Shown here: one piece after another, positions 43,246 through 57,435 of the stretch
How the letters are laid out: each line of letters opens with the position of its first letter
Numbering within the stretch: the stretch's first letter is position 1
NCBI GenBank assembly: GCA_946811185.2
Contig: OX328107.1
Coordinates: 45,498,360 to 45,562,359, forward strand
Length of the DNA: 64,000 nucleotides
Origin: Hippopus hippopus
Lineage: Eukaryota > Mollusca > Bivalvia > Cardiida > Cardiidae
Reading direction: 5' to 3'
The notes under the pieces: generated by a model
The model's database searches: none
The model's input: the letters and a program-made list of their open reading frames with translations, nothing else
What the model was told of the DNA's origin: nothing
Program-made: the position numbers and the translations under genes

Positions 43246-43319
43246 TACTCTTTGCAGTATAACTCTCAGGAGTATAACTCTTTTGGAGTGCATCTCTTCT
43301 AAAAGAAGTTTGACAATTT

Positions 43320-43846
43320 GAAGAAATGACAATTTTGAATAAAGATAGAACTTTCGTGGTAATGGTTAGTCCTGAAAAGGACTGCTGGGTTAGCTCTGAA
43401 AAGAGCTGTGACAATTTGAAGAAATGACAACTTGAAGATAGAACTTTCGTCTGACAGCCTGAAGGTAGAACTTTCGTCTGACATCTTGAAGATAGATCTT
43501 TCGTGGTAATGGTTAGTCCTGAAAAGGACTGTTGAGTTAGCTCTGAAAAGAGCTGTGACAATTTGAAGAAATGACAACTTGAAGATAGAACTTTCGTCTG
43601 ACAGCTTGAAGATAGAACTTTCGTCTGACATCTTGAAGATAGATCTTTCGTGGTAGATGGTTAGTCCTGAAAAGGACTGTTGGGTTAGCTCTGAAAAGAG
43701 CTGTGACAATTTGAAGAAATGACAACTTGAAGAAAGATAGAATTTTCGTCTAACAGCTTGAAGGTAGAACTTTCGTCTGACAATTTGAAGAAATGACAAT
43801 TTGAAGAAAAGATAGAACTTACGTCTGACAATTTGAAGAAAGGTAG
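43320..43846 (-). repeat. array of histone-type stem-loops and downstream boxes, left
   Basis: Mirror of 55393-55930. Stems AGTCCT/AGGACT (for example 43368-43383) and AGCTCT/AGAGCT (43392-43407) alternate with repeated GACGAAAGTTCTATCTTCAAG-like boxes. Read on the minus strand these lie downstream of the 77-aa gene. Confidence 0.85.
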
Positions 43847-43847
43847 A

Positions 43848-43907
43848 TCTTCCGTGGTAGATGGTTAGCCCTGAAAAGGGCTGTTGGGGTGGTCCTAAAA
43901 AAGGACC
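43848..43907 (-). terminator. histone-like 3' stem-loop of the left 77-aa gene
   Basis: On the minus strand: GGTCCT/AGGACC with a T5 loop (43891-43907), then AGCCCT-TTTC-AGGGCT (43867-43882), then ACCATCTACCACGGAAGAT. Stop-to-stem distance is 19 nt to the first stem. Confidence 0.75.
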
Positions 43908-43926
43908 TGGTTTGGAGATTGTGTTT

Positions 43927-44160
43927 TTAAGCACAACCTCCAACCTTTCTGCAGGCTGAGCAGCTACTTGCTGCCCGCCTCTTTAGCCTCTTCAACTGCT
44001 GTTCATCCAGCCCAAAGTCCAATGAGAACGAAGGCTCAGCGTCATCGTTCCAATCTTCTGTCGATGGTACGACAAACTCCTTCTTCTTGGCGTCCATCTT
44101 TTTTTTGGATGACAGCTGCGCAAGCTCGCTGAAGCTCATATCTCTCAAAGCACACTCCAT
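43927..44160 (-). CDS. 77-aa Polinton small protein (left copy)
   Basis: Function unknown. A 77-residue acidic/basic protein: Lys-rich stretch at ~18-27, acidic middle (STEDWNDDAEPSFSLDFGLDE, ~33-52), a basic helix LKRLKRR (~56-62) and a C-terminal Cys cluster SCSACRKVGGC that may bind metal. It differs from the right-arm copy by S for P in that cluster (SCSAC versus SCPAC). Reads outward towards the left tip. Preceded by a TGACGTCA/TATAAAA promoter (44204-44304) and followed by histone-type stem-loops. Start chosen at the only ATG, ~50 nt after the TATA box. No similarity to a known family is recognised. The basic helix could bind nucleic acid (inference). Confidence 0.8.
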   Translation of the reverse strand: MECALRDMSFSELAQLSSKKKMDAKKKEFVVPSTEDWNDDAEPSFSLDFGLDEQQLKRLKRRAASSCSACRKVGGCA

Positions 44161-44203
44161 ATTGCAGTAAATTGAAGAGAATGAACGATGTGCGGGAAAT
44201 GAC

Positions 44204-44304
44204 GCTGGGTTTTATAGCTTTTCAGACGGATTGAACTAGTTGACCCATGACGTCATTTTCTCCTATGTTTTTCCCGCGTCGGCGTTTCATGCTGTTTTGG
44301 CTCC
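44204..44304 (-). promoter_or_regulatory. cassette-1 promoter (CRE + TATA), left arm
   Basis: Minus strand: GAAACGCCGACGCGGGAAAA, then TGACGTCA (44248-44255), then TATAAAA (44210-44216). The same cassette precedes the 68-, 104- and right 77-aa genes. TGACGTCA is the consensus CREB/ATF site; GCGGGAAA resembles an E2F site (inference). Confidence 0.8.
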
Positions 44305-44488
44305 AAATTAATGTTATCCAATCAGAATCAGCGTTTTATTTCTAATACTAAATGTTTTATTGTTGGCCAATCCGCAGCTTTGTTGCATTTTTTCTTGTTC
44401 GGGATAGAAAAACTAGAGTTTGACTAATCTATGACTTTTTTTTGATTGTGAATCTTTTGAGTTTTTGACAATTTTGAAGAAAGATAGA

Positions 44489-44523
44489 ACTTTCGTGGTA
44501 GATGGGTAGCCCTGAAAAGGGCT
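44489..44523 (-). terminator. histone-like stem-loop after the broken 88-aa copy
   Basis: AGCCCT-TTTC-AGGGCT on the minus strand (44508-44523) followed by ACCCATCTACCACGAAAGT. The signal is kept even though the gene upstream is broken. Confidence 0.75.
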
Positions 44524-44557
44524 GTTTTGTTTTTTGGAGGCTATGTTTTTTCCACTT

Positions 44558-44788
44558 CTAATGACAACATCCGAAATTCGCTTGGTAAATGGCTAAGATG
44601 ATGTCAGACATTGTCTTTAAAAATAGTTGAAGTAATCTTTCGCCGAGATCTTTGTAGAGCTTTGTTATAGGTTGTAGTTGGTTTTATTTCTCCTCTCCTA
44701 TAAAGTGAGTGTTTAGTTGTAATAACTGATGACCTGCATTTAGATATTCTTGGAGAGCCTCATGTAGTTGATAATTTATCTCCCCCAT
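44558..44788 (-). pseudogene. broken copy of the 88-aa gene
   Basis: Inverted, diverged copy of 53148-53414. It has an ATG at 44788 and matches the intact copy for ~34 codons (QEYLNAG.QLLQL), then an in-frame TAA. A deletion of ~45 bp also removes the segment carrying the first two Cys of the C-terminal cluster, while the NFGCCH end survives at the nucleotide level. Its promoter (TATA-like CTTTATA on the plus strand at 44879-44885) and 5' leader remain. The intact right-arm copy is presumably sufficient. Confidence 0.85.
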
Positions 44789-44938
44789 ATTGATACTGCT
44801 TCCGAATATTGATACTGCTTCCGAAGTGATCGTTAGCTGAGAGCCAAAAATGGTGAAATGTGTGAAAATAACGCTGGGCTTTATACGTTTACAGAGGATT
44901 GAGATTTTTTAAAGAGCTCGGACCGGGTAGAAAGCACA

Positions 44939-45009
44939 TACATTTTTTCCATGCTACGTCTCATGCTAATATAGCAAAAAAGTTATGAGACGCTGTATGG
45001 AAAAATGTA
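44939..45009. repeat. long imperfect palindrome, left
   Basis: ~25-nt arms (TACATTTTTTCCATGCTACG and its near-complement) separated by ~20 nt; mirrored at 52926-52996. It lies just upstream of the cassette-2 promoter. Candidate recognition or replication site (inference). Confidence 0.75.
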
Positions 45010-45232
45010 GACAGAACAAGTCTTTTGGGGAAAAAACAGAATGAAGAGCTCTATTGTTTTTGAACTTTTATTTACTGAACAGAACTAAACAATGAAACAT
45101 TTTTTGCAATGCATCATAAAAAAATTTCTTGACAATGAAAAAATTTCTTGACAATGAAAAAATCACACTGAATTATTTTTTTCGCAATGAATTATTTACA
45201 ATGAATTAATCGCAAAACAGTATATAACAAAT

Positions 45233-45287
45233 TTTATGCAATGCAAATTCGCAAACACCACGAGTTTCATATTTGTTTTCATATTCC
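45233..45287 (-). pseudogene. C-terminal scrap of the 218-aa gene
   Basis: Minus strand encodes the last residues of the 218-aa protein (codons for ETRG.CEFAL, near identical to 52526-52556), although the stop codon is changed. It marks the inner end of the inverted repeat and shows that the right end was copied onto the left. Confidence 0.8.
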
Positions 45288-45941
45288 TACCGTTTTGTTG
45301 TTTTTTCTTGGTTGTTTTCGCTCTGTCTTTGGTTTTTTCGGGATCTTGAAATCAACGTGATTGTCAATGTTTTTCCCGTATTTACCCTGACCTGTCAATA
45401 TTGGTGTAGTTGGTTTTTGATCAAACCGCTGCTTCTTGTGGAGATGGTTAGCATCTTCCTCAGATTTCCGCTTTGTTGTTTTTCTTGGTTGTTTTTCCTC
45501 TGGTTGTTTTTTCTTTGGTTGATTTTTCTTCACAACACTTACGATAGAGTCCACTAAGTTGTGAAGATTGGATTTATCAAACTCGAACTCCACAGGAATC
45601 TTCACAGGAGTTGTTGAAATGCACTGATCCTGTTGGCGTAGTACCTCGATATTTCTACTGAGCTGATCAGTACTTGCGCTTAAAGTTTTAATTTCCTCCA
45701 AATGTGTGTTTAAAGTCTCCAGCTGATCTATGATCCGGGTCATCATGCTATCTTGCTTCAAATTTAGCTGCTTTACCTCTTCATAAATGTTGTCAAACAC
45801 CGTCGCTGGAATGATGGTTGTCGAATTTAACTCCGGTGGTGGATTGATGATTGTCGAATTTATAACTGATGAAAGAACGTCTCCATTGTTTTCCACTGGT
45901 GGAAAATCGTCCAAGTTGATTTCATCTAAGTTGTGCTTCAT
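45279..45941 (-). CDS. 220-aa coiled-coil/basic-tail Polinton protein
   Basis: Function unknown. The ATG at 45941 is chosen because the frame upstream starts only with TTG, and the aligned leader of the 88-aa gene starts at the same place. Acidic N-terminus (MKHNLDEINLDDFPP), a heptad-like helical region ~50-105 (EEVKQLNLKQDSMMTRIIDQLETLNTHLEEI) predicted to form a coiled coil, then a strongly basic tail from ~140 (KKKQPEEKQPRKTTKRK, KKPKTERKQPRK) suiting nuclear import or DNA binding. Divergent from the 68-aa gene. The final codons and TGA lie inside the inverted repeat, so its original C-terminus may have been overwritten. A structural or DNA-bridging role is possible, but unproven. Confidence 0.8.
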   Translation of the reverse strand: MKHNLDEINLDDFPPVENNGDVLSSVINSTIINPPPELNSTTIIPATVFDNIYEEVKQLNLKQDSMMTRIIDQLETLNTHLEEIKTLSASTDQLSRNIEVLRQQDQCISTTPVKIPVEFEFDKSNLHNLVDSIVSVVKKNQPKKKQPEEKQPRKTTKRKSEEDANHLHKKQRFDQKPTTPILTGQGKYGKNIDNHVDFKIPKKPKTERKQPRKNNKTVGI

Positions 45942-46085
45942 ATTGAAACTGTTTCTGAATATTGATACTGCTTCCAAAGTGATCGTTAGCTGAGAATCAA
46001 AGAAATGGTGAATGTATGAAAATAACGCCGAGCTTTATACGTTTACAGAGGATTGAAATTTTTAAAGAGTGCGGACCTGGCGGAA
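45942..46085 (-). promoter_or_regulatory. cassette-2 promoter and leader for the 220-aa gene
   Basis: Minus-strand TATAAAG at 46033-46039, 92 nt before the ATG, then a leader (GATTCTCAGCTAACGATCAC...) nearly identical to those of the 88-aa gene and its broken copy. Upstream lies TTTCAATCCTCTGTAAACG. Confidence 0.75.
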
Positions 46086-46165
46086 AACACCGGGATTGTA
46101 CTGTGTGACATCGAAATGGGAGTGGTGAAAAAAAACACCGATATAACCGTCGATTTGAATGCACA

Positions 46166-46255
46166 ATGTTAATGAAACGCCGACGCGGGAAAAAACATAG
46201 GAGAAAATGACGTCATGGGTCATCTAGTTCAATCCTCCTGTAAAGCTATAAAGCC
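46166..46255 (+). promoter_or_regulatory. cassette-1 promoter for the 68-aa gene
   Basis: GAAACGCCGACGCGGGAAAA, TGACGTCA (46208-46215) and TATAAAG (46247-46253), 39 nt before the ATG. Forms a divergent promoter region with cassette 2 at 45942-46085. Confidence 0.8.
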
Positions 46256-46291
46256 CAGTGATATTTTACATAAAATCATATTTGTTCCAGA

Positions 46292-46498
46292 ATGGTTCGA
46301 ATTCTTGTGTGCCCTCACTGTGCAAGCAGATGTCTGATAGAGTGTGGGAAATGTTTTACCATACTTGAGTATCTTGGTCAGAAGCATAACTGTCCAGATA
46401 CAGATGAAGGATTTTACAATGATGATGAAGGTTCGACGATTTGCTGTGAACACTGTGGGTGTGAAATCATCCCAGTGGATCGGGCGGAAGAATCGTAG
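46292..46498 (+). CDS. 68-aa Cys-rich (zinc-ribbon-like) Polinton protein
   Basis: Function unknown. The small protein has Cys pairs CPHC (8-11), a central CLIECGKC region and CCEHCGC near residues 51-57, plus His at ~32, a pattern that could fold as one or two zinc ribbons/fingers (inference). The acidic patch DTDEGFYNDDEG separates the two Cys groups. Start is the first ATG after a TATA box 39 nt upstream. A histone-type stem-loop begins 33 nt after the stop. It lies between, and diverges from, the 220-aa gene; the 271-aa gene converges on it. No homologous family is recognised. Confidence 0.78.
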   Translation: MVRILVCPHCASRCLIECGKCFTILEYLGQKHNCPDTDEGFYNDDEGSTICCEHCGCEIIPVDRAEES

Positions 46499-46530
46499 AG
46501 CTGGATGTCAATGTGAGATCCTTCAAAAAA

Positions 46531-46565
46531 AGCCCTTTTCAGGGCTAACCATTTAGCACGAAAGA
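46531..46565 (+). terminator. histone-like 3' stem-loop and downstream box, 68-aa gene
   Basis: AGCCCT-TTTC-AGGGCT (46531-46546) begins 33 nt after the stop codon; AACCATTTAG follows, then CACGAAAGA (46557-46565). This copy is outside the inverted arms, so its placement after a stop codon is independent of the terminal repeats. Confidence 0.8.
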
Positions 46566-46652
46566 TCTTTCTTCTCAAATTGTCAAAAGTAAAAAGACTT
46601 ACAATCACAACTAGAAAAAAGTCAAAAGTAAGAAGTAATCATTTTATATTTT

Positions 46653-46658
46653 TTTATT
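46653..46658 (-). terminator. possible polyadenylation signal, 271-aa gene
   Basis: Minus-strand AATAAA about 200 nt downstream of the stop. There is no stem-loop of the histone type on this strand here. Confidence 0.4.
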
Positions 46659-46859
46659 TTAAAAAGAACTTATGTACAATGATAAAAATCAAATCATGAA
46701 CTGTAAAAACAAAAAAATGAATGAACTGTAAAGACAAAAAATGAATGAAAAAAAATCAAGTCAGTCTTTTTTTGTTTATATTCAATATTGTATTGAAATC
46801 TTTTTTTCACTCAGTATGTTTTTCTTTTTTTCTTTGGAATGTCAGATTCACATCTGGTT

Positions 46860-47675
46860 TTACGTTTTCTTTTCCTTTCGTTGTTTTTTAATTCCACATC
46901 TGGACAGATTTTGTCCTCGTGTTTTGTTGATTTGCAAAAGAAATAGTTCTTTGTTACTCGTTTTTTTCTTCTTTTCGATGTTTTGCTGTTTTTCCTTTCC
47001 GTACGAGCAACCCGGTTCTGCAGAAAATTCGTTTTTTAGATCCAAAGTTTGTTGTTTTCTTAGATCCAAAGTTTGTTGATTTCTTAGATTTTTTCGTAAT
47101 GTCTCTAAATCATCTGTTATTTTGCAGATTTCTGAATCGTTGATATCCATCGTGTCGCTCTGCATGTCTACGGTCTGAGTTTCAACCGATGAGGATGTAG
47201 CTTGTGGTGAACTTTTTTTCCATGTATTTTCACTGCAGAATGAATTTAGTGTGCCGACGAATTTTATATCTTTGAGACCATCAACGTTGTAAAACGATGG
47301 TAAAATCTCAATGTCGTGACTGTGTGGATTCACGTAGACAAAAACAATTGTTCCTAGCTGATTTTCTTTTTCTGGACATTCTTTGGCCCATTGTCCTGCT
47401 TCGTTGCATGTGAAACAAATATTTGTTCTCACACCATTCGCACCATATCGTTTGTCAATCATCGCTTGATCCAAAACTCTGTAGCTGGTAGTACGGTAAA
47501 CATCTTTTTCTTCTAAATGTTGCTGGGATAAAAATGATCCCACATAGTTTCCGATATGTTTAACATCATACTTTGATGGTATATTGCTGATCTCATAATC
47601 GTGGGTGTATGGATTAACATACAGATACACCCTCTTTCTAAGTGGTGATGTATTTTGCAGCTTTAACTCGCTCAT
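46860..47675 (-). CDS. 271-aa protein with two copies of a YVNPxxHDxEI module and a knuckle-like motif
   Basis: Function unknown. Residues ~15-49 and ~110-147 are an internal duplication: each has YVNP(Y/H)(T/S)HD.EI followed by a ...VGxxxSF end. Between them lies CFTCNEAGQWAKEC (87-100), which is the CX2CX4HX4C zinc-knuckle spacing but with Gln in the His place. Residues ~190-215 contain a LR(N/K)QQTLDL repeat, and the C-terminus is basic (KKQRKEKK). It diverges from the polymerase gene across a 158-bp intergenic region with two TATA boxes, suggesting coordinated expression with PolB. Candidates include a DNA-binding or priming accessory factor, but nothing in the sequence proves it. Confidence 0.8.
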   Translation of the reverse strand: MSELKLQNTSPLRKRVYLYVNPYTHDYEISNIPSKYDVKHIGNYVGSFLSQQHLEEKDVYRTTSYRVLDQAMIDKRYGANGVRTNICFTCNEAGQWAKECPEKENQLGTIVFVYVNPHSHDIEILPSFYNVDGLKDIKFVGTLNSFCSENTWKKSSPQATSSSVETQTVDMQSDTMDINDSEICKITDDLETLRKNLRNQQTLDLRKQQTLDLKNEFSAEPGCSYGKEKQQNIEKKKKTSNKELFLLQINKTRGQNLSRCGIKKQRKEKKT

Positions 47676-47833
47676 ATTTTTTTATCAGCTGTACTGTCTG
47701 AGATCGAGTAGGAGAATGAATAGATTTTCACAACTATCGTCTCTATTTATACACTGTTACAACGGAGAGGCTATATAAATTGTTAGTTTTTTCTCACTTC
47801 TGCATTATTGTCTTTTCACTCAGAGCTAAAACG
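47676..47833. promoter_or_regulatory. divergent promoter between the 271-aa and PolB genes
   Basis: Minus-strand TATAAATAG (47743-47751) serves the 271-aa gene, 68 nt before its ATG. Plus-strand TATATAAAT (47772-47780) serves PolB, 54 nt before its ATG. Neither cassette 1 nor cassette 2 is present. Confidence 0.7.
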
Positions 47834-50800
47834 ATGGGTAAAAGAAAAAGAATAATAACCTATTCAGACAGTGAAAGTGACGATGAGGTGTTTCCACCAA
47901 CAAAAAAGAAAAAAACTAGACCGTTGAAAGAAGAAAGTGACGATGAGATATTTCCAGCAATAAAAAAGAAAAAAACTAAACCGTTGAAAGAAGAAAATGA
48001 CAGCGACGATGAAAGTATCAACTCTAACTTAGACATGAAAAGTCTATATGATTTAACAGAAAAGGGTAATAAGAAGTCAAGAAAATTTAAAACAGAATCA
48101 CATGTGCTGATGCTGAGTTTTAAGAAATTTGAAGAATTAACACCTCAGAGACTACTTGGATTATTTGACGATGTTACCCGTGAAATCATTCGAAAGTTAA
48201 ATGCTAACCCTACGGACATGATTAGAATTACCATCAATCATCCTTCGTCGGAAATAGGAATCCATATTCCTTTTTTAGCTGCAGACCAGTTACAAGGTGA
48301 AACTATGCTGAATGAAATTGAACGAGTTTTACAATCGAATACAGATTTCGTCTTGAACGATGGATTCATGACATTTGACATTACACATACAATACCACCA
48401 AGTGGTAGCGGAAAACCCAAATATAGATCGTCAGAGTTAGATTCAAAGTTTTTTGCCCAGAAGAAGCAATCTATTATTCAAATTGGCAATCATGACCAAC
48501 TATGTTTTGCAAGAGCTGTTGTTGTGGGAATTTGCTACAGTGAACGTGAAAACACCGAAGTATGGAATAGAAAATGGCGTCGTATTTGTCGTTCAAAACG
48601 CCTTCTTCAAAAGACTGAAGCTGAGAAATTGTTACATGAAGCTGGAGTTTCACCAACACAGTCTGTAGGAATTGATGAATACAAAAAAATTCAAACAATC
48701 TTGTATGAAAAAGGCTATGTCATTAAAGTTCACCAGCAGCATTCAAAAGTGGAAAAAATATTTAAACATCCAGAAGTGAAAGCCAATAGTAAGATCATAC
48801 ATTTGTACTTTCATCAAAACCATTATGACTACATCAAATCTATCAAAGGTTTTCTTAGTTGTGGATATTATTGTGAGTTCTGTGATGTGGGTTACAATAA
48901 CCGGGAAGGTCATACTTGTTCAAATATCTGTAAAGGTTGTTACCGCAAAGGAAAATGTCCATCAGAATCAAAAGAATATGTTTGCAGTGTTTGCAGTAGA
49001 CGATTTTTTAGTGCTGAATGCTTTGAAAATCACAGAAATGTTCAAGGTAAAGAAAAGAAATCCATTTGTGAATTAGTGAAACTCTGCTCGAAATGCGGTG
49101 CACAATATTATGTCAGAAAGAAAAATCATGTTTGCAATGGAAAGAAAAGATGTCATATCTGTAAGAGAATTGTTAACCTTTCTCATCAATGCTATATTCA
49201 ACCTTACCAAAGTAAGTTGAACCATGACAGCGATGACGAGACGAGTTCTTCTGTAGTCAAAAAACCACAGTTTATTTTCTTTGATTTTGAATGCAAACAA
49301 GACACAGGCGTACACATCCCGAATTATTGTATCGCACACAGAGCGTGCGATGTATGTATCGATAAATCACTTGATTTTCATTGTTCTACATGCAGTGAAT
49401 TTGAAGAGGGTAGGGAAGTTATTTTTCAAGGTGAAGAAACTTTGAGTCAATTTTGCAACTGGCTCTTTTCAAAACATCATAAAGGGGTTACGGCTATTGC
49501 CCATAATTTCAAAAGCTATGACGGTCAGTTCATTCTTGACTATATTGTCAAAGTTGGGTTAAAACTTCCAAAATTGATCATGAATGGAAACAATATTATG
49601 AAGTTAGAACTGAATGGTGTACGTCTGATCGATTCTTTCAATTTCATGAGTTTTGGTTTGGCAAAATTTCCAACCACCTTTGGTCTTCAAGAAATGAAAA
49701 AAGGTTACTTTCCTCACTGGGCAAATACAGATGAATTTTGGAGTTACATTGGACCCTACTTGGATATGTCTTATTACAAACCCGACTCAATGTCTGAAGA
49801 GGCTAGGTCAAAATTCATAGTTTGGTATAATGACAAAGTTCGAAATGGTGAGGAATTCAATTTTCAGAAGGAGATGGAATTGTACTGTAGGTCAGATGTT
49901 GATATACTCAGACGAGGATGTGCTGAATTCAGAAAGCTGTTTATCGAACAGGGTGGTATTTGTCCATTTTTAGAGGCGATTACCATCGCAGATGCCTGTA
50001 ACAAGGTGTGGCGAAGTAAATATTTACCAGAAAATCAAATAGCTATCATTTCAAGTAAAGACTCATCCAGACGTAGGTTTTCTATGAAAGCGATACGATG
50101 GGTTCAAAGCGTTGCTCAGGTAAAAGGTATTATTATTCAGCATGCAAAAAATGGTGGTGAAGCTCAAATCGGGAAATATAGTGTAGATGGTTTTCACCGT
50201 CAATCAAACACTGTTTATGAATTTCTTGGGGATTTGTATCATGGTTGTCCTGTATGCTATACAGATCGAAATCAGATCAATCCTATTAATGGAAAACGCA
50301 TGTCTGAATTGTACAAACGTACTTTTGAACGTATAGCAGATATCGAAGAAATGGGATATAATGTAGTGTACATTTGGGAACACGAATTTGATGCTAAGAT
50401 GAAGGATAAAGAGTACAAAAAACTCATTGAAAAGTTATATCCACATTGGGACCCTATCGATCCGAGGGATGGTTTGTCCGGGGGAAGATGTAATGCAATA
50501 AAAATTGGATATGATGTTGATGAAAAAAGCAAAAAGGAAATCAAGTACATCGATATCTGTTCTCTATACCCTTACGTTTGTAAACACAAATCCTACCCTG
50601 TAGGTCAGCCAAAAATTTTGTCTACTGAGAATATTGATATGAACAATATTTGCCAATATGAGGGATTAATCAAGTGTAAAGTTTTACCTCCAACTGATTT
50701 GTTTCACCCCGTTCTCCCAGTTCACTGTAACAACAAAATGATGTTTCCACTCTGTATGAAATGTGCAGAAGAAAGCTCAAACATTTGTAGACATGGTAAA

Positions 50801-51823
50801 AAAGAGAGGGCTTTGGTCGGAGTTTGGGTTACTTTTGAATTATTCAAGGCTCTTGACTGCGGTTATCGATTATTGCAAGTGTATGAAATTTGGCATTTCA
50901 ATTCTGTGTCAGATCAGTTCTTTAAACATTATGTGGACAATTTCTTGAAAATTAAGCAAGAAGCCAGTGGTTATCCAGGTTGGTGTCAATCACACTCAGA
51001 AAAAGATCAGTTCGTTTGTGAATATGAGAAGGCGGAAGGTGTTCGTCTTGATCCAAGTTATATTCAAAGAAATCCTGGGAGAAGATCATTTGCTAAGATT
51101 ATGTTGAACTGTCTTTGGGGAAAATTAGCACAGCGTGAAAAAATGACCCAGACGGAATACATCAGTAAACCGTCTAAATATTTTGAATTAGTCACCAATC
51201 CCAATTTCATTGTAAAGCATGTAGAAATCTTTGACGAGGACTGTTCATTCATCTTGGTTAACTATGAATCAAAGTTGGAGCATATTGACACCCACGCTAC
51301 AGCCAATGTGGTAGTAGGATCTTACGTAACAGCTTATGCAAGATTGGAATTGTACAGCGTTCTTGAAAAGTTAAAAGATAGAGTTCTGTATTTCGATACA
51401 GATAGTTGTATGTACATTCACGACCCTGAATTATGGAATCCTTCTATTATTAACAGCCGACTAGGAAAATGGACTGATGAAGAACCTGATTGTAAAATTA
51501 CTCAATTCAGAGGGCTTGGGCCTAAGAATTATGCTTACAAAATGAAAACAAAAGATGGAGAAGAGATAAGCAAATGTAAAGTAAAGGGGATTACTCTGGA
51601 TTACAATACAAAACAGGTGGTGAATTTTGATACATATTCGAAATGTGCTTTAGATCGCACAGTAGAAATCAAAATTCAGTATGATTGTAAAATTAAAAGA
51701 CACAGAGATAGAACGGTTACCAGTGAACCACAAACAAAAACATTTCGCTCTGTATACACCAAGAGAGTTATTGTAAATGGTACTGACACTGTACCCTATG
51801 GTTATAAAAGTTTGAGAAAATAA
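47834..51823 (+). CDS. polB: protein-primed-type family B DNA polymerase, 1,329 aa
   Basis: Replicative DNA polymerase with 3'-5' exonuclease (DNA_pol_B_2 type, Polinton clade). Start: ATG 47834 (MGKRKRI); the earlier ATG at 47780 overlaps the TATA box. Order: acidic/basic repeat with KKKK stretches, likely nuclear targeting (1-55); N-terminal domain (~85-215); a possible cysteine-peptidase-like segment, DQLCFARA with C224 and NHYDY with H330; a Cys/His-rich region with several zinc-finger-like pairs (343-453); Exo I D484-F-E486; Exo II H557NFKSYD563; Exo III Y684CRSD688VD690; linker GGR (883-885); motif A D907ICSLYP; motif B K1088IMLNCLWGK; motif C YFD1188TD1190S. All catalytic acids are present. 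Longer than stand-alone viral protein-primed polymerases because of the N-terminal extensions. The 218-aa gene follows 79 nt downstream. Confidence 0.95.
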   Translation: MGKRKRIITYSDSESDDEVFPPTKKKKTRPLKEESDDEIFPAIKKKKTKPLKEENDSDDESINSNLDMKSLYDLTEKGNKKSRKFKTESHVLMLSFKKFEELTPQRLLGLFDDVTREIIRKLNANPTDMIRITINHPSSEIGIHIPFLAADQLQGETMLNEIERVLQSNTDFVLNDGFMTFDITHTIPPSGSGKPKYRSSELDSKFFAQKKQSIIQIGNHDQLCFARAVVVGICYSERENTEVWNRKWRRICRSKRLLQKTEAEKLLHEAGVSPTQSVGIDEYKKIQTILYEKGYVIKVHQQHSKVEKIFKHPEVKANSKIIHLYFHQNHYDYIKSIKGFLSCGYYCEFCDVGYNNREGHTCSNICKGCYRKGKCPSESKEYVCSVCSRRFFSAECFENHRNVQGKEKKSICELVKLCSKCGAQYYVRKKNHVCNGKKRCHICKRIVNLSHQCYIQPYQSKLNHDSDDETSSSVVKKPQFIFFDFECKQDTGVHIPNYCIAHRACDVCIDKSLDFHCSTCSEFEEGREVIFQGEETLSQFCNWLFSKHHKGVTAIAHNFKSYDGQFILDYIVKVGLKLPKLIMNGNNIMKLELNGVRLIDSFNFMSFGLAKFPTTFGLQEMKKGYFPHWANTDEFWSYIGPYLDMSYYKPDSMSEEARSKFIVWYNDKVRNGEEFNFQKEMELYCRSDVDILRRGCAEFRKLFIEQGGICPFLEAITIADACNKVWRSKYLPENQIAIISSKDSSRRRFSMKAIRWVQSVAQVKGIIIQHAKNGGEAQIGKYSVDGFHRQSNTVYEFLGDLYHGCPVCYTDRNQINPINGKRMSELYKRTFERIADIEEMGYNVVYIWEHEFDAKMKDKEYKKLIEKLYPHWDPIDPRDGLSGGRCNAIKIGYDVDEKSKKEIKYIDICSLYPYVCKHKSYPVGQPKILSTENIDMNNICQYEGLIKCKVLPPTDLFHPVLPVHCNNKMMFPLCMKCAEESSNICRHGKKERALVGVWVTFELFKALDCGYRLLQVYEIWHFNSVSDQFFKHYVDNFLKIKQEASGYPGWCQSHSEKDQFVCEYEKAEGVRLDPSYIQRNPGRRSFAKIMLNCLWGKLAQREKMTQTEYISKPSKYFELVTNPNFIVKHVEIFDEDCSFILVNYESKLEHIDTHATANVVVGSYVTAYARLELYSVLEKLKDRVLYFDTDSCMYIHDPELWNPSIINSRLGKWTDEEPDCKITQFRGLGPKNYAYKMKTKDGEEISKCKVKGITLDYNTKQVVNFDTYSKCALDRTVEIKIQYDCKIKRHRDRTVTSEPQTKTFRSVYTKRVIVNGTDTVPYGYKSLRK

Positions 51824-51902
51824 TTCTATATCACATTGTTGTGTAAAAATCAGTCAGAGTAAGTCGAGAAAAAATATTAGCCGTTGGTCAAAAATAACAA
51901 TC

Positions 51903-52559
51903 ATGTTACCGTTACCAATAGAACTACGTGAAAAAATTTATGGAGAATTTGTTCGACAGCATACGCTTGATGAACGAACGCAGCTTAACATTAAATTTTT
52001 CTGTGTGAAAATTTGGATCGGAAAATTGTTTAAGTGGATTGCAAAAGGAGAAAAATCCTACAAAGTGTATGGTATAATCAACTTTATTGCGATGATGGTG
52101 GACGATTCGGGGTTGGGTCTCGTTCTCAAAACTTATTTAGCAGATAGCTGTTTGAAAGACAATGTTATTAGTAAGCTGTTTCGATCCACAAGTCGATGGA
52201 CATTTTTTATCATAGGAAGAACAGAAGAAAGTTTTCTTAACGTTGCGAAAATGAAATCAGTTCTATTTGACTTTTACTTACGGTACAAAAAAGGATCTGT
52301 TCATGATTCCTACGGAGAAACAATGGAAACCATGTCAGGGTATATTCTATTTGATAGAGATGTTACAGAAGAAGTAGTGAATTCAGCTCTTTCAACAAAA
52401 GACGCTTATAGACATGTTGCTCCATTCATAGGACTACGAGATTTCGACGATATGGATAGTGAGTATACAATGTTTTTAGGGTATGACCAATTGCATAAAG
52501 ACATTACGGAATATGAAAACAAATGTGAAACTCGTGGTATTTGCGAATTTGCATTGTAA
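51903..52559 (+). CDS. 218-aa Polinton protein of unknown function
   Basis: Not recognised. N-terminus MLPLPIELREKIYGEF resembles an F-box-like or short amphipathic helix opening, followed by alternating hydrophobic helices (NFIAMMVDDSGLGLVL), an aromatic segment (RWTFFIIGRTEESFLNV) and an acidic C-terminal half ending CETRGICEFAL. No signal peptide or clear membrane segment. It begins 79 nt after PolB stops with no clear TATA box between, so it may share a transcript with PolB or use a weak internal promoter. AATAAA signals lie ~290-310 nt beyond its stop and no histone-type stem-loop is present. Its last residues were copied into the left arm (45233-45287). Confidence 0.8.
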   Translation: MLPLPIELREKIYGEFVRQHTLDERTQLNIKFFCVKIWIGKLFKWIAKGEKSYKVYGIINFIAMMVDDSGLGLVLKTYLADSCLKDNVISKLFRSTSRWTFFIIGRTEESFLNVAKMKSVLFDFYLRYKKGSVHDSYGETMETMSGYILFDRDVTEEVVNSALSTKDAYRHVAPFIGLRDFDDMDSEYTMFLGYDQLHKDITEYENKCETRGICEFAL

Positions 52560-52582
52560 AAAATTTGTTATATACTGTTTTT

Positions 52583-52867
52583 GCGAATAATTCATTGCGA
52601 AAAATAATTCATTGCAAAAAAATAATTCATTGTGATTAATTCATTGCGATTAATTCATTGTGAATAATTCATTGTTAAGAAATTTTTTCAGTGTGACTTT
52701 TTCATTGTTAAGAAAATGTTTTTTATGCTGTATTGTAAAAATGTTTCCTTGTGATTTTTTTTCATTGTCAAGAAATTTTTTCATTGTCAAGAAATTTTTT
52801 ATAATGCATTGCAAAAAAATGTTTCAATGTTTAGTTCTGTTCAGTAAATAAAAGTTCAATAAATAAA
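52583..52867 (+). other. ATTCATTG direct repeats followed by polyadenylation signals
   Basis: About seven AATTCATTG(C/T)GA-type direct repeats (52586-52675), then repeats of TTTCATTGTCAAGAAATTTT, then AATAAA at 52847-52852, 52858-52863 and 52862-52867. A shorter diverged mirror lies at 45060-45232. The repeats could be iteron-like; the AATAAA motifs fit the 3' end of the PolB/218-aa unit. Confidence 0.6.
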
Positions 52868-52925
52868 AGTTCAAAAAAACAATAGAGTTCTTCATTCTGT
52901 TTTTTCCCCAAAGACTTGTTCTGTC

Positions 52926-52996
52926 TACATTTTTCCATACAACGTCTCATAACTTTTTTGCTATATTAGCATGAAACGTAGCATGGAAAAAATGTA
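52926..52996. repeat. long imperfect palindrome, right
   Basis: Mirror of 44939-45009. Arms TACATTTTTCCATACAACG and its near-complement differ at several positions between the two copies while pairing is mostly kept. Confidence 0.75.
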
Positions 52997-52999
52997 TGT

Positions 53000-53147
53000 G
53001 CTTTCTGCCAGGTCCGAGCTCTTTAAAAAATTTCAATCCTCCTTAAACGTATAAAGCCCCCGCGTTATTTTCATACAATCACCATTTCTTGATTCTCAGC
53101 TAACGATCACTTCGAAAGCAGTGTCAATATTCGGAAGCAATATCAAT
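53000..53147 (+). promoter_or_regulatory. cassette-2 promoter and leader for the 88-aa gene
   Basis: TTTCAATCCTCCTTAAACG, TATAAAG (53050-53056) and the GATTCTCAGCTAACGATCAC leader. TATA to ATG is 92 nt, as for the 220-aa gene. Confidence 0.75.
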
Positions 53148-53414
53148 ATGGAGGAGGTAAATCATCAACTACGTGAGGCTCTCCAAGAGTATCTAAATGC
53201 CGGGCAGCAGTTATTGCAACTAACCACTCATCTCGTAGGAGATGAGGAACAAAACCAACTACAACGTATAACACAGCCATACAAAGATCTCGGCGAAAGA
53301 TTAGTTCAACTATTATTAAAGACAACACCGGATATCATTTTGGTTGATATCGAATTTGGGAGGAAGATTACAGCATGCCCCATTTGCCAAGCGAATTTCG
53401 GGTGCTGCCATTAG
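53148..53414 (+). CDS. 88-aa Polinton small protein with C-terminal Cys cluster
   Basis: Function unknown. The ATG at 53148 is used; upstream codons are open only from a GTG. Residues 1-65 look like one long amphipathic helix or two (LREALQEYLNAGQQLLQL, RITQPYKDLGERLVQLLL), and the C-terminus is ACPICQANFGCCH, a CP.C-x4-GC cluster like that of the 77-aa protein (SCPACRKVGGC). A dimerising helix plus a metal-binding tail is a reasonable guess. Driven by a cassette-2 promoter and ended by a histone-type stem-loop starting 37 nt after the stop. A diverged copy in the left arm is broken (44558-44788). Confidence 0.78.
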   Translation: MEEVNHQLREALQEYLNAGQQLLQLTTHLVGDEEQNQLQRITQPYKDLGERLVQLLLKTTPDIILVDIEFGRKITACPICQANFGCCH

Positions 53415-53450
53415 AAGTGGAAAAAACACAGCCTCCAAAAAAAACAAAAC

Positions 53451-53485
53451 AGCCCTTTTCAGGGCTACCCATCTACCACGAAAGT
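53451..53485 (+). terminator. histone-like 3' stem-loop and downstream box, 88-aa gene
   Basis: AGCCCT-TTTC-AGGGCT (53451-53466), then ACCCATCTAC, then CACGAAAGT (53477-53485). The ACCCA directly after the stem is the canonical histone flank. Confidence 0.8.
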
Positions 53486-53685
53486 TCTATCTTTTTTAAA
53501 ATTGTCATTTCTTCAAACTATCAAAACTCAAAAGATTTACAATCAAAAAAAGTCATAGATTAGTCAAACTCTAGTTTTTTCTAACCCCAAACAAGAAAAA
53601 ATGCAACAAAGCTGCGGATTGGTCAACAATAAAACATTTAGTATTAGAAATAAAACGTTGATTCTGATTGGATAACATTAATTTT

Positions 53686-53785
53686 GGAGCCAAAACAGCA
53701 TGAAACGCCGACGCGGGAAAAACATAGGAGAAAATGACGTCATGGGTCAACTAGTTCAATCCGTCTGAAAAACTATAAATCTCGG
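53686..53785 (+). promoter_or_regulatory. cassette-1 promoter for the 104-aa gene
   Basis: GAAACGCCGACGCGGGAAAA, TGACGTCA (53735-53742), TATAAAT (53774-53780), 37 nt before the ATG. Nearly identical over ~85 bp to 54935-55025. Confidence 0.8.
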
Positions 53786-53816
53786 CGATTTATTTTCCAT
53801 ACATTTCATTTTCACA

Positions 53817-54131
53817 ATGGCTTCAAGACCATCACTCCTCGTCACTTGGATGGATGCTGAGCGAAAGTTAACAAGAGCAAGGAGACAAATCGTCTTACTT
53901 AAACAGCGCCTAGTTGGAGTGAGAAGACGACACGAGAGGGCTGAGCTTGCTAATAACAGGGTGTTCTGTTATAACCTTCGGATGAAGGAACTCATTATTG
54001 AGGGCATGCTTGAAATGTATTTTCAGTATGTTATTTCAAAAACAGAGGAGGTAGACCGTCTTTTCCGCGCGCAAATCGCCGCTGAAAGGAGTGAGTCAGA
54101 CAGCGAATCGACTGATGCTGATACTAAATAA
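53817..54131 (+). CDS. 104-aa coiled-coil Polinton small protein
   Basis: Function unknown. Basic, Arg-rich helical N-terminal half (WMDAERKLTRARRQIVLLKQRLVGVRRRHERAELANNR) with leucine/valine spacing suggesting a coiled coil and perhaps a bZIP-like layout. Then a hydrophobic helix (MKELIIEGMLEMYFQYVI) and an acidic Ser/Asp tail (SESDSESTDADTK). Because the promoter has a CREB/ATF-type site, a bZIP-like self-regulator is conceivable, but the canonical bZIP Asn/Arg signature is not seen. Present only in the right arm. The matching left segment was lost between two promoter cassettes. A histone-type stem-loop starts 32 nt after the stop. Confidence 0.78.
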   Translation: MASRPSLLVTWMDAERKLTRARRQIVLLKQRLVGVRRRHERAELANNRVFCYNLRMKELIIEGMLEMYFQYVISKTEEVDRLFRAQIAAERSESDSESTDADTK

Positions 54132-54162
54132 ACATTTTCAAAAATCAGCTCTTCTCAAAAAC

Positions 54163-54197
54163 AGCCCTTTTCAGGGCTAACCATCTACCACGAAAGA
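54163..54197 (+). terminator. histone-like 3' stem-loop and downstream box, 104-aa gene
   Basis: AGCCCT-TTTC-AGGGCT (54163-54178), AACCATCTAC, CACGAAAGA (54189-54197), then TTTCTTCAAATTGTC repeats. Confidence 0.8.
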
Positions 54198-54249
54198 TCT
54201 ATCTTTCTTCAAATTGTCATTTCTTCAAATTGTCATTTCTTCAAATTGT

Positions 54250-54934
54250 CAAACTTCTTTCTTTTAGAAGAGTTACACTCCAAAGAGTTACACTCCAAAG
54301 AGTTACACTCCAAAGAGTAAGAATCATTCATAGATGCAGAAAAAAGACTAATCCCAACTCAATGATTAGGCAAATAGAAAAGAGAATTCATTCATAGAAT
54401 GAAAAAAAGCTAAGTCCAACCCAGTGCTCAGTCTTTTAGAGAAAAAAAATCATTCATAGATGCAAAAAAGACTAAGTCCAACTCAATGGTCAGGCTTTTA
54501 GAAAGAAAATTCATTCATAGGGTAAAAAAAAGTCTAAGTTCAACTCAGTGCTCAGACATTTAGAAATCATTCATAATTGCAGAAAAAACTAAGTTCAACT
54601 CAGCGATATAGGGACAAATTCCATTTAGAGAGAAAAAATCATTCATAGGATGAAAAAACTAAAAAAGTGATCCATTACACATATAAAACACTAAACTCTT
54701 GATTATTTTTTCTCATTTACCATTAACTTTTCGTAAAACCTGAACCAGTATCGCACAATGTTTGGATTAACATTTTTCTCTCATTGCTCTTCTGGTTAGA
54801 AGAAAGAGAACGTTTCAGATATATCAGACATGAAATTGAGCATCTGATGCAAATGCTAGATAAAATGGAATCAATCAAAAGAAAGAGAGGGGGATAAAAA
54901 AGTGCATTCTGTACAAAAAAGCAACTCTTTTCAG
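54250..54934. repeat. internal copy of subterminal repeats plus unassigned spacer
   Basis: 54260-54665 repeats the GTCCAACTCA/TCATTCATAG monomers of the outer arrays, including a small triple repeat of AGAGTTACACTCCAA. 54670-54934 is unique; the minus-strand open frame there has no recognisable motif. A stem-loop scrap (CTCTTTTCAGGG) ends at 54936. Confidence 0.7.
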
Positions 54935-55040
54935 GGAGCCAAAACAGCATGAAACGCCGACGCGGGAAAAACATAGGAGAAAATGACGTCATGGGTCAAC
55001 TAGTTCAATCCGTCTGAAAAGCTGTAAAACCCAGCGTCAT
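54935..55040 (+). promoter_or_regulatory. cassette-1 promoter, right 77-aa gene
   Basis: TGACGTCA at 54984-54991. The TATA position reads TGTAAAA (55023-55029) where the left arm has TATAAAA, so the right copy may be weaker. Confidence 0.75.
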
Positions 55041-55078
55041 TTCCCGCACATCGTTCATTCTCTTCAATTTACTGCAAT

Positions 55079-55312
55079 ATGGAGTGTGCTTTGAGAGATA
55101 TGAGCTTCAGCGAGCTTGCGCAGCTGTCATCCAAAAAAAAGATGGACGCCAAGAAGAAGGAGTTTGTCGTACCATCGACAGAAGATTGGAACGATGACGC
55201 TGAGCCTTCGTTCTCATTGGACTTTGGGCTGGATGAACAGCAGTTGAAGAGGCTAAAGAGGCGGGCAGCAAGTAGCTGCCCAGCCTGCAGAAAGGTTGGA
55301 GGTTGTGCTTAA
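55079..55312 (+). CDS. 77-aa Polinton small protein (right copy)
   Basis: Same protein as 43927-44160, reading outward to the right tip, with SCPACRKVGGC at the C-terminus instead of SCSAC. The CP.C-x4-GC form matches the 88-aa protein (ACPICQANFGC), so this copy probably keeps the ancestral metal-binding tail. The first stem-loop begins 19 nt after the stop. The downstream 1.9 kb holds only the stem-loop array and the subterminal repeats. Confidence 0.8.
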   Translation: MECALRDMSFSELAQLSSKKKMDAKKKEFVVPSTEDWNDDAEPSFSLDFGLDEQQLKRLKRRAASSCPACRKVGGCA

Positions 55313-55331
55313 AAACACAATCTCCAAACCA

Positions 55332-55391
55332 GGTCCTTTTTTAGGACCACCCCAACAGCCCTTTTCAGGGCTAACCATCTACCACGGAAGA
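55332..55391 (+). terminator. histone-like 3' stem-loops, right 77-aa gene
   Basis: GGTCCT/AGGACC with a T5 loop (55332-55348), then AGCCCT-TTTC-AGGGCT (55357-55372), then AACCATCTAC and CACGGAAGA (55383-55391). Confidence 0.78.
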
Positions 55392-55392
55392 T

Positions 55393-55930
55393 CTACCTTT
55401 CTTCAAATTGTCAGACGTAAGTTCTATCTTTTCTTCAAATTGTCATTTCTTCAAATTGTCAGACGAAAGTTCTACCTTCAAGCTGTTAGACGAAAGTTCT
55501 ATCTTTCTTCAAGTTGTCATTTCTTCAAATTGTCACAGCTCTTTTCAGAGCTAACCCAACAGTCCTTTTCAGGACTAACCATCTACCACGAAAGATCTAT
55601 CTTCAAGATGTCAGACGAAAGTTCTATCTTCAAGCTGTCAGACGAAAGTTCTATCTTCAAGTTGTCATTTCTTCAAATTGTCACAGCTCTTTTCAGAGCT
55701 AACTCAACAGTCCTTTTCAGGACTAACCATTACCACGAAAGATCTATCTTCAAGATGTCAGACGAAAGTTCTACCTTCAGGCTGTCAGACGAAAGTTCTA
55801 TCTTCAAGTTGTCATTTCTTCAAATTGTCACAGCTCTTTTCAGAGCTAACCCAGCAGTCCTTTTCAGGACTAACCATTACCACGAAAGTTCTATCTTTCT
55901 TCAAAATTGTCATTTCTTCAAATTGTCAAA
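55393..55930 (+). repeat. array of histone-type stem-loops and downstream boxes, right
   Basis: Paired stems AGCTCT-TTTC-AGAGCT (55537-55552, 55685-55700, 55832-55847) and AGTCCT-TTTC-AGGACT (55561-55576, 55709-55724, 55856-55871). Each pair is followed by ACCA..ACCACGAAAG and several GACGAAAGTTCTATCTTCAAG-like boxes. A 214-aa open frame across it is repeat read-through. Confidence 0.85.
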
Positions 55931-55989
55931 CTTCTTTTAGAAGAGATGCACTCCAAAAGAGTTATACTCCTGAGAGTTATACTGCAAAG

Positions 55990-57190
55990 AGTAAAAAAAA
56001 ACTCAGAAAAAGACTAAGTCCAACCCAGTGCTCAGTCTTTTAGAAAGAAAAAATCATTCGTAATTGCGGAAAAAGACTAAGTCCAGCTCAATGGTCAACC
56101 TTTTAGAAAGAGAGAAAATCATTCATAGGGTGAAAAAAGCAAAGTCCAACTCAGTGATATAGGATAAATTCCTTTTAGAAAAGAGAAATCATTCATAGAG
56201 ATGCAGAAAAAAGTCTAAGTCCAACTCAATGGTCAGGCAATTAGAAAGAGAAAAAAATCATACATAGGTGAAGAAAAAACTAAGTACAACTCAGTGCTCA
56301 GACATTTAGAAAGAAAAAAGTCTAAGTCCAACTCAATGGTCAGGCTTTTAGAAAGAGAGAAAATCATTCATAGGGTAAAAAAAACTAAGTCCAACTCAAT
56401 GGTCAGGCAATTAGAAAGAGAAAAAATCATCCATAGGGTGAAAAAACTAAGTCCAACTCAATGTCCAGGCATTTAGAAAGAGAAAAAATCATCCATAGGG
56501 TGAAAAAAACTAAGTCCAACTCAATGTCCAGTCATTTAGAAAGAGAAAAAATCATCCATAGGGTGAAAAAAACTAAGTCCAACTCAATGTCCAGGCTTTT
56601 AGAGAGAAACCACTTAAAGGCCAAGTAGTGGATAGAAGTAAACAATAAAGCAATCCTAATAGCATATGGGTAAAAAACTAAGTCCAACTCAGTGCTCAGT
56701 CTTTTAGAGAAATCATTCATAATTGCAGAAAAAGACTAAGTCCAACTCAGTGATCAGGCTTTTAGAAAGAAAATCATTCATAGGGTAAAAAAAGTCTAAG
56801 TTCAACTCAATGTTCAGACATTTAGAAAGAGAAATCATCCATAATTGCAGAAAAAGACTAAGTCCAACTCGGTGATCAGGCTTTTAGAAAGAAAATCATT
56901 CATAGGGTAAAAAAAGTCTAAGTTCAACTCAATGGTTAGGCATTTAGAAAAGAGAATTCATTCATAGAATGAAAAAAGCTAAGTCCAACTCAGTGATATA
57001 GGGATAAATTCCTTTTAGAAAAGAGAAATCATTCATAGAGATGCAGAAAAAAGTCTAAGTCCAACTCAATGGTCAGGCTTTTAGAGAGAAACCACTTAAA
57101 GGCCAAGTAATGGATAGAAGTAAAACAATAAAGCAATCCTAATAGCATATGGGTAAAAAACTAAGTCCAACTCAGTGACCAGACCTGTCA
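55990..57190 (+). repeat. subterminal tandem repeats, right arm
   Basis: Mirror of 42040-43245: CTAAGTCCAACTCA motif at 60-75-bp spacing. Confidence 0.9.
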
Positions 57191-57426: not shown

Positions 57427-57435
57427 TATACTACT

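Follow-up and report, generated by a model that had tools for sequence, protein, structure and literature searches.

Small genes of a Polinton-like element in Hippopus hippopus end in histone-type 3' hairpins and probably borrow host histone mRNA processing

The small genes of a virus-like mobile element in Hippopus hippopus are followed by a hairpin, a purine box and a third motif, arranged as in the histone genes of the same genome. Given this layout we consider it very probable (about 0.87) that these genes are regulatory mimics of the host replication-dependent histone genes, with mRNAs that would be processed by SLBP and U7, non-polyadenylated and linked to S phase. This suggests that non-histone small genes of such an element may be expressed as tail-less, replication-timed messages. 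All positions refer to the window, which is the whole stretch of 64,000 nucleotides that was analysed.

The PolB element is 15.6 kb long and spans positions 41802-57435, the limits drawn in the sequence-only reading being too narrow. It is bounded by 2.5-kb terminal inverted repeats (left, 41802..44304, with the tip AGTAGTATAGGAGG; right, 54935..57435) with 2490 identities over 2503 and 2501 nt, and flanked by the 6-bp target-site duplication AATCAA (41796..41801 and 57436..57441). Polintons have 6-bp duplications and tips starting with AG. The plus strand carries a 1329-aa DNA polymerase B (PolB, 47834..51823; PF03175, E 1.1e-40) and an adjoining 218-aa gene (51903..52559), and the minus strand a 271-aa gene (46860..47675), whose product displays a zinc-knuckle match under Pfam's cut-off, and a 219-aa gene (45279..45941; 220 aa counted from the ATG at 45941). 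The earlier label of Polinton holds for the Polinton-type family-B DNA polymerase, the inverted repeats and the 6-bp duplication (5-6 bp expected) but is weakened by the integrase, capsid and protease, none of which was found: integrase gave 0 Pfam matches in 9 ORFs and 0 tblastn matches with the integrase of L003, a divergent Polinton contig, and capsid and protease genes did not turn up in these searches either, though remote capsid folds may escape them. An LXCXE-like (Rb-binding) motif was seen neither in seven small and mid-size proteins nor in PolB.

All four distinct small genes are followed by the hairpin AGCCCT-TTTC-AGGGCT, exactly at the positions first given for it. On the plus strand these are the 68-aa Cys-rich gene (46292..46498; hairpin 46531..46546), the 88-aa gene (53148..53414; hairpin 53451..53466), the 104-aa gene (53817..54131; hairpin 54163..54178) and the 77-aa gene of the right inverted repeat (55079..55312; hairpin 55357..55372); the left inverted repeat holds a 77-aa gene on the minus strand (43927..44160; hairpin 43867..43882). 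No such hairpin follows PolB, the 271-aa or the 218-aa gene. AACCA or ACCCA directly after the stem (ACCCA for the 88-aa gene) and a closing pair that departs from consensus, A-U and not G-C, were both read correctly at the outset, while the distance from stop to hairpin, proposed as 19-37 nt, measures 32, 36, 31 and 44 nt for the 68-, 88-, 104- and 77-aa genes respectively. For the 104-aa protein no homologue was obtained at E<=0.001, and its single-sequence model displays two long helices (pLDDT 89), in our reading a predicted two-helix hairpin with no histone fold. Three of the small proteins had no match in PADLOC.

The element holds more hairpins than first reported. In each inverted repeat the 77-aa gene is followed by a tandem array, in which paired hairpins, with AGCTCT and AGTCCT stems, and their purine boxes recur with a period of ~147 nt (55537..55871, plus strand; left counterpart 43368..43702, minus strand); many of the inner array hairpins have no TTGTCA within 54 nt. 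The 88-aa gene also has a decayed copy, and 3' of this copy lies a further intact histone-type hairpin (44508..44523, minus strand).

The Rfam covariance model of the histone 3' hairpin, RF00032, matched all four hairpins at 28.5 (88-aa gene), 25.7, 24.1 and 22.4 bits, with E-values between 1.5e-4 and 0.03, yet all of these lie under its gathering score of 34 bits. Three of five host histone genes are under this cut-off as well (H2A, H2B and H1, with 33.5, 32.4 and 30.0 bits in some order). No RF00032 match at E<=5 was obtained in 41.8 kb of flank; palindromic repeats there reach E-values as low as 3.5e-7 against miRNA families, which makes the E-value alone weak and leaves the argument to position and flanking motifs. 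A strict hairpin scan counted 4 hairpins across the 10.6-kb interior and none in the 48 kb of flanks, against a single one from all 500 dinucleotide shuffles together; under laxer settings unrelated hairpins appeared as well, 3 of them in the flanks and 4 inside the element. A chance origin of the hairpins is made very unlikely by the shuffles, by the flanks and by a motif scan of 85 loci (1.21 Mb), of which L003 was the sole positive. The hairpin and box pattern has 6213 matches in the genome, a count of pattern matches and not of copies, and 0 in a backwards control. By sequence comparison the small-gene copies compared are under purifying selection (dN/dS 0.06-0.42, 21 gene copies), and the hairpin lies 31-53 nt past the stop in 19/21 of them, a proportion biased upward since the 30 loci examined were picked by the hairpin pattern.

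Alignment to histone genes of the same genome (H1, H2A, H2B, H3, H4 and a lone H2A), which had been proposed as a check, displays the same 3' layout. A purine box, a putative U7 site, was claimed ~13 nt past the stem and is present in all four small genes, as CACGAAAG after the 68-, 88- and 104-aa genes (46557..46564, 53477..53484 and 54189..54196) and as CACGGAAG after the 77-aa gene (55383..55390), all on the plus strand; the box begins 10 nt past the stem in each, which places GAAAG, or GGAAG in the 77-aa gene, at +13. In 5/6 host genes GA[AG]A stands at +11/12, the H3 entry of this comparison having been read by hand. In addition the AACCA or ACCCA would supply a putative CA cleavage site ~5 nt past the stem, a position taken from an excerpt of PMC6303110. 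In each of the four element stretches folded, the purine box and the sequence following it can form a second hairpin, which might hide the box from U7. The U7 model RF00066 gave 0 matches in the host and also 0 in 14 controls, so that its result carries no weight.

The sequence-only reading had overlooked a third motif, TGTCA, which is found 29-33 nt past the stem in 6/6 host histone genes and 33-35 nt past it in 4/4 element genes. In the element it reads TTGTCA, on the plus strand, at +33 after the stem of the 68-aa gene (46580..46585) and at +35 for the 88-aa (53502..53507), 104-aa (54214..54219) and 77-aa genes (55408..55413). To our knowledge TGTCA has not been described as a signal in the histone genes of this host, and its sharing points to one there.

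The promoters of the small genes fall into two classes. Before the 88-aa gene lies a 26-nt box (52998..53023, plus strand) with 23/26 identities to part of the host histone H1 promoter; none of 300 shuffles did as well, and the 219-aa gene has this box in its promoter too. E2F-like and CRE sites mark the other class, which comprises the 68-, 77- and 104-aa genes; examples are CGCGGGAAA (E2F-like) and TGACGTCA (CRE) upstream of the 104-aa gene (53712..53742, plus strand) and the same two with TATAAA upstream of the 68-aa gene (46184..46252, plus strand). The promoters of 6 host histone genes showed neither E2F sites nor full CRE sites, and a looser E2F pattern occurs 4 times in the flanks as well. 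It is from the E2F-like sites of one class and the H1 box of the other that a link to S phase is drawn.

Outside the element, L003 has a hairpin of 35.8 bits, above the Rfam cut-off of 34. This hairpin lies 28 nt past the stop codon of a zinc-finger gene, which is itself preceded by three copies of TGACGTCA. L003 is a single case and lacks TTGTCA. The zinc-finger protein aligns with the 68-aa protein over 11 residues (E 0.037). Another PolB contig, L004, shows no hairpin in its 3.6 kb of PolB. A 428-aa ORF of L003 was considered as a capsid candidate and set aside, its model being useless (pLDDT 30). An alignment search returned 76 loci with short PolB matches among the best 80 of 288 matches, and these displayed no hairpins in the motif scan; a PDB sequence search with the PolB alignment found nothing at E<=0.001. 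Among viral contigs no relatives were found with PolB or the L003 integrase as queries, and the hairpin patterns match 7 of them, in which RF00032 gave nothing at E<=1. The proposal that the element borrows host SLBP and U7 is supported, since the host histone genes share the hairpin, the purine box and TGTCA at near-equal spacing and since the L003 hairpin exceeds the cut-off.

In such a pathway, RNA polymerase II would transcribe the small genes into short intronless pre-mRNAs (~275-392 nt by layout), host SLBP would bind the hairpin, U7 snRNP would pair with the GAAAG box, and cleavage would occur after the CA, ~5 nt past the stem. The resulting poly(A)-less mRNA would be stable and translated chiefly during cellular DNA replication, hence timing the small products to S phase, when nucleotides and replication factors would be available to PolB, while PolB and the larger genes would retain ordinary poly(A) signals. 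The 219-, 271- and 218-aa genes each have AATAAA no more than 400 nt away, and ATTAAA lies 3' of PolB. The 219-aa gene has AATAAA and no hairpin in the window despite its histone-like promoter, and its relative in locus L103 is followed by a hairpin.

The hairpins could instead act as stability or translation signals only, on messages that are also polyadenylated downstream and not strictly bound to S phase. This we regard as unlikely. AATAAA is indeed found 213 nt past the stop of the 88-aa gene and 114 nt past that of the L003 zinc-finger gene, and C. elegans histone genes, according to excerpts of PMC1924863, retain a poly(A) signal next to the hairpin; the same excerpts, however, place the end of the C. 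elegans mRNA three to six nt past the hairpin. Moreover, the other three small genes (68, 77 and 104 aa) have neither AATAAA nor ATTAAA within 400 nt, and the purine box and TTGTCA are kept although a pure SLBP signal would need neither.

Passive capture, in which an ancestral element took up histone 3' flanks together with H1 promoter DNA and carried the signals along unused, would leave just such a similarity to the host histone flanks, and the intact hairpin behind the decayed gene copy is compatible with it. We consider it very unlikely. The hairpin stems differ only via paired changes, with 3 of the 6 pairs altered on both sides and 66/66 cells paired across 11 distinct rows, so that a 6-bp stem and 4-nt loop of the RF00032 structure are kept by paired changes. 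The hairpin with TTGTCA at +35 is likewise kept after 77-aa copies whose synonymous sites are saturated (dS >1 in L099, L104, L116, L124 and L112, the last seen via the overlapping L113). Finally, the A-U closing pair occurs in 0/6 host histone genes compared, and at the corresponding position a distant Polinton carries a histone hairpin of its own that differs from this one.

A role of the palindromes as DNA, in replication, packaging, recombination or protein binding and commonest in the inverted repeats, would fit the tandem arrays of both repeats and the very many genome matches. It appears highly improbable, as the window hairpins are sense-oriented 3' of small genes or of the decayed copy, the unique interior included, and as the TTTC loop, the ACCA and the downstream motifs match those of the host histone genes, which would be irrelevant to a palindrome. 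That the conserved stretch is coding, for a repeat peptide (PFSGLTIYHERS) in long frames such as the 214-aa one spanning an array, is contradicted by the reading frames, the hairpins occupying two frames of that ORF and three different frames after the 68-, 88- and 104-aa genes.

Mimicry of host histone genes by the small genes may be part of a broader strategy, for and against which we see about equal weight. Animal Polinton-like elements would have taken over the whole histone regulatory dress for a set of small genes, effector or virion, from the promoter boxes to SLBP/U7 3' ends and a third signal specific to the lineage, creating an S-phase-only, poly(A)-free class of viral expression. 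The strategy would be old, common to distant Polintons such as L003 and tuned per host; in this genome it would have been amplified, with copies probably in the hundreds, and SLBP and U7 may then be contested between these copies and the histone genes. If true, a parasite would hijack the SLBP/U7 pathway, the expression of such elements would be timed to DNA replication for this reason, and poly(A)-selected RNA-seq would miss their small genes.

Compared with the metazoan histone mRNA 3' end (RF00032; SLBP/U7), the element is alike in the 6-bp stem, the UUUC loop, the ACCCA/AACCA, the purine box near +13 and the TGTCA that the host has at about +31, and differs in having non-histone mobile-element genes, an A-U closing pair and, behind the 77-aa gene, several hairpins in tandem. 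With Polintons/Mavericks it shares long inverted repeats, the 6-bp target duplication and a type-B polymerase related to that of the integrase-bearing contig L003, and it differs from them by the integrase, capsid and protease, which were not found; no report of histone-type gene ends in Polintons was among the literature listings consulted. Adintoviruses and adomaviruses are, as presented in the main text of PMC11071296, Polinton-like animal viruses with small zinc-finger genes (Ziftr) and histone-like proteins (Histoid), and the terms 'stem-loop' and 'polyadenylation' have 0 occurrences in that main text. There, as far as that account goes, it is a histone-like protein that the virus bears, whereas here it is unassigned small proteins whose genes bear histone-type RNA ends.

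The element (41802-57435, 15,634 bp) contains all four small-gene hairpins and carries inverted repeats (2503 and 2501 nt) that are identical at 2490 positions, tips of AGTAGTATAGGAGG and a 6-bp target duplication (AATCAA) on both sides. Its PolB is 1329 aa long (PF03175 in Pfam, E 1.1e-40) and, with residues 500-1329 as query, 808 relatives were retrieved; among the 120 of these listed, the top identity is 82%, for relatives without organism name, and the closest with an animal name are oysters at ~ 43%. The sequence-only reading had called the element a Polinton. PolB, the inverted repeats and the 6-bp duplication agree with this label, but none of the 9 element ORFs has a Pfam match to an integrase, a capsid or a protease. 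Of eight proteins encoded by L003, a distant Polinton contig, all but PolB lack a counterpart in the element. For these reasons, the element is, judging by its genes, Polinton-related and not a full Polinton. Adjoining PolB, a 218-aa protein (51903-52559) has 31 relatives, all of which lack both a Pfam domain and a name. A GC-rich hairpin lies ~ 10 nt inside both tips (41812-41863 and 57374-57425), with a mir-4788-like match under the cut-off (E 0.018), and may act in replication or cleavage. Towards their outer ends (42050-43200 and 56038-57180) the inverted repeats consist of a short, diverged unit repeated in arrays (AAGTCCAACTCAATGGTCAGGC...).

The hairpins after the 68-, 88-, 104- and 77-aa genes were confirmed at 46531, 53451, 54163 and 55357. 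Their stems begin 31-44 nt past the stop and not 19-37 nt as first claimed, while the purine box expected ~ 13 nt after the stem is present: in three genes GAAAG starts at +13 (positions count from the stem), with the variant GGAAG in the 77-aa gene. A strict hairpin rule finds 4 hairpins in the element interior versus 1 in total over 500 dinucleotide shuffles, and none in the 48-kb flanks, where a laxer rule finds 3 unrelated ones. Among 11 distinct hairpins taken from L003 and the window, all 66 cells are paired, and 3 of the 6 pairs have changed on both sides. The check proposed with the histone stem-loop covariance model (RF00032, Rfam) gave matches after the genes, but at 22.4-28.5 bits, under the gathering score of 34; the 41.8 kb flank has no match at E<=5. 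In the same flank, palindromic repeats match a miRNA family with E as low as 3.5e-7, hence E-values alone are not trustworthy. Further hairpins form pairs at 24-nt spacing (an AGCTCT stem followed by an AGTCCT stem), which recur every ~ 147 nt at 55537-55871 and 43368-43702 in arrays that resemble a series of backup 3' ends; an extra hairpin with a 5-nt loop (GGTCCT-TTTTT-AGGACC) lies directly before the first hairpin of the 77-aa gene.

The genes of the element differ in their ends. PolB and the 271-, 218- and 219-aa genes have no hairpin and show AATAAA (ATTAAA for PolB) within 400 nt; neither signal occurs within 400 nt of the 68-, 77- and 104-aa genes, and for the 88-aa gene AATAAA is found twice, at 213 and 234 nt. 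These classes are not fixed, since in the genomic copy L103 the 219-aa gene matches up to 1480 and is followed by a hairpin at 1501.

Promoters were also compared. CGCGGGAAA and TGACGTCA are common to the 68-, 77- and 104-aa genes and absent from the 48-kb flanks, where 4 matches to a looser E2F pattern are seen. E2F sites drive G1/S expression, and mRNAs with a histone-type end live mainly in S phase. As neither E2F nor full CRE sites were seen in six host histone promoters, the E2F/CRE part of the element is not histone copying. TATAAA precedes the 68-, 104- and left 77-aa genes, and all other genes except the right 77-aa copy. The 88- and 219-aa genes have a common promoter, unlike that of the 68-, 77- and 104-aa genes, and both match the host H1 promoter, through a 26-nt box for the former (23/26 identical, score 37) and a 27-nt match for the latter (score 34); none of 300 Markov shuffles equalled them. 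Against the promoter of a lone H2A both also beat 300 of 300 shuffles. Among the 54 promoter pairs compared, the best outside these two genes (PolB versus H2A, score 25, 3 of 300 shuffles) is taken as noise. TCAATCC lies within 250 nt upstream of all 6 small-gene copies tested, the 219-aa and both 77-aa copies included, and upstream of 3 of 6 host histone genes, with 5 occurrences on both strands of the flanks; none was found within 250 nt upstream of PolB or the 271- and 218-aa genes.

In the host genome, a hairpin-plus-box pattern leaving four stem positions open gave 6213 matches, 3153 on one strand and 3060 on the other, and the reversed pattern used as control gave none. In the matches listed, all from one contig (C1), the open positions pair by our own reading, three times via U-G. 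Thirty loci picked by this pattern, several of them from one element copy, contain small-gene relatives at 36-99% protein identity. Of 34 ORF rows, 13 were dropped as shorter alternative starts of a gene already counted, which left 21 gene copies (five of the 104-, two of the 68-, seven of the 77- and seven of the 88-aa gene), with dN/dS of 0.06-0.42 versus the window genes; dS exceeds 1 in 5 of the 7 copies of the 77-aa gene. The hairpin stands 31-53 nt past the stop in 19 of 21 copies, a single U-G pair occurring in two of these hairpins. L112 ends too soon, its overlapping locus L113 showing the hairpin, and L105 lacks the first one, the next being ~ 220 nt on. TTGTCA, where present at these loci, lies at +31 to +37, and many inner array hairpins have none within 54 nt.

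A scan of genome contigs with a PolB alignment returned two contigs, L003 and L004. L003 (8.9 kb) is labelled a Bacteroidia MAG; its genes suggest a mis-binned Polinton, apparently eukaryotic DNA that contaminates a collection of prokaryote genomes. It encodes a PolB (37% identity) and an integrase (6012-7136) whose C-terminal chromodomain match falls just under the Pfam cut-off. A TATA-binding-protein-like gene (7192-7695; PF00352, E 1.2e-27) lies beside the integrase. The hairpin at 8340, GGCCCTTATCAGGGCC-ACCCCA, scores 35.8 bits with RF00032, over the cut-off, and stands 28 nt past the stop of a zinc-finger gene (89 aa), which has three TGACGTCA upstream and AATAAA 114 nt past its stop. Its AAAAAAGAGA box contains the AAAGAG core, named for a mouse histone substrate in a passage of PMC7026596; TTGTCA is absent from L003. 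L004 (3.6 kb of PolB) shows no hairpin. When 85 loci (1.21 Mb in total), of which seven had been retrieved through hairpin-like patterns, were scanned for the motif, L003 alone was positive.

In the SLBP/U7 pathway, as outlined in passages of PMC7026596, PMC1924863 and PMC6303110, histone mRNA is cut ~ 5 nt past the stem with the U7 snRNP, and the abstract of the last places such mRNA in S phase. By their sequence, the small-gene transcripts would be cut likewise, ~ 5 nt past the stem with U7 snRNP, and the resulting mRNAs would be present mainly in S phase. Folding predictions put the purine box in a second hairpin, which counts as doubt on this mechanism. The U7 model (RF00066) has 0 matches in the host genome, and 0 in 14 control genomes too. 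An open-access literature search returned no paper joining Polintons and the histone stem-loop, nor, among the papers listed and judged by titles and abstract openings, any mobile element or virus described as having histone-type ends. It covered viral SLBP/U7 use, adintoviruses or Polintons with histones, mobile elements with U7, the histone stem-loop or Polintons, Polinton polyadenylation and promoters, and Polintons with TBP, E2F and S phase, with small samples for mobile elements with U7 and for Polintons with TBP/E2F/S phase. For clam histone mRNAs, a passage of PMC6210712 reports stem-loops in all and purine boxes in part.

At the sequence level, the strongest evidence is the comparison with host histone genes. 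In the host genome (1.07 Gb, 34 contigs), RF00032 has at least 74 matches, a lower bound since scoring covered only 75 of the 305,864 first-look candidates, the element's own hairpins being outside this count; among 14 control genomes one (Lactococcus lactis) has a match, under the cut-off. Of the 74, 72 lie in C15:40.57-41.47 Mb, where the fetched loci encode H1, H2A, H2B, H4 and H3; the lone H2A is at C15:26.49 Mb (all named from their sequences). A histone-type hairpin outside the cluster (C8:42665067, 31.4 bits; ~ 7068 in L094) has no recognised histone among the locus ORFs of 60 aa or more and a 409-aa ORF, transposase-like by appearance, nearby; it may be an orphan or another captured end. 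Five host histone genes, H3 being outside this set, score 37.9, 35.2, 33.5, 32.4 and 30.0 bits. Three of the five are under the cut-off, and therefore the element's sub-threshold scores do not rule it out.

Host histone stems are GGCCCT or GGTCCT, from which the element's stem is set apart by its A-U closing pair. GA[AG]A stands at +11 or +12 in 5 of 6 host histone genes (GAAT in the cluster H2A) and GAAA at +13 in 3 of 4 element genes. A third motif, absent from the sequence-only reading, is TTGTCA, at +33 to +35 in all four element genes; ATTGTCA occurs 12 times on both strands of the 48 kb flank. In all six host histone genes (L095, L096, L097) TTGTCA, or GTGTCA in H2B, lies beyond the purine box at +29 to +33, the H3 positions being counted by hand. 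We know of no description of this TGTCA motif in histone 3' ends; possible functions are a second contact for U7 or a signal for termination. The alignment with host histone 3' regions, which had been proposed as a check, thus finds the hairpin, the purine box and TGTCA common to both the element and the histone genes of its host.
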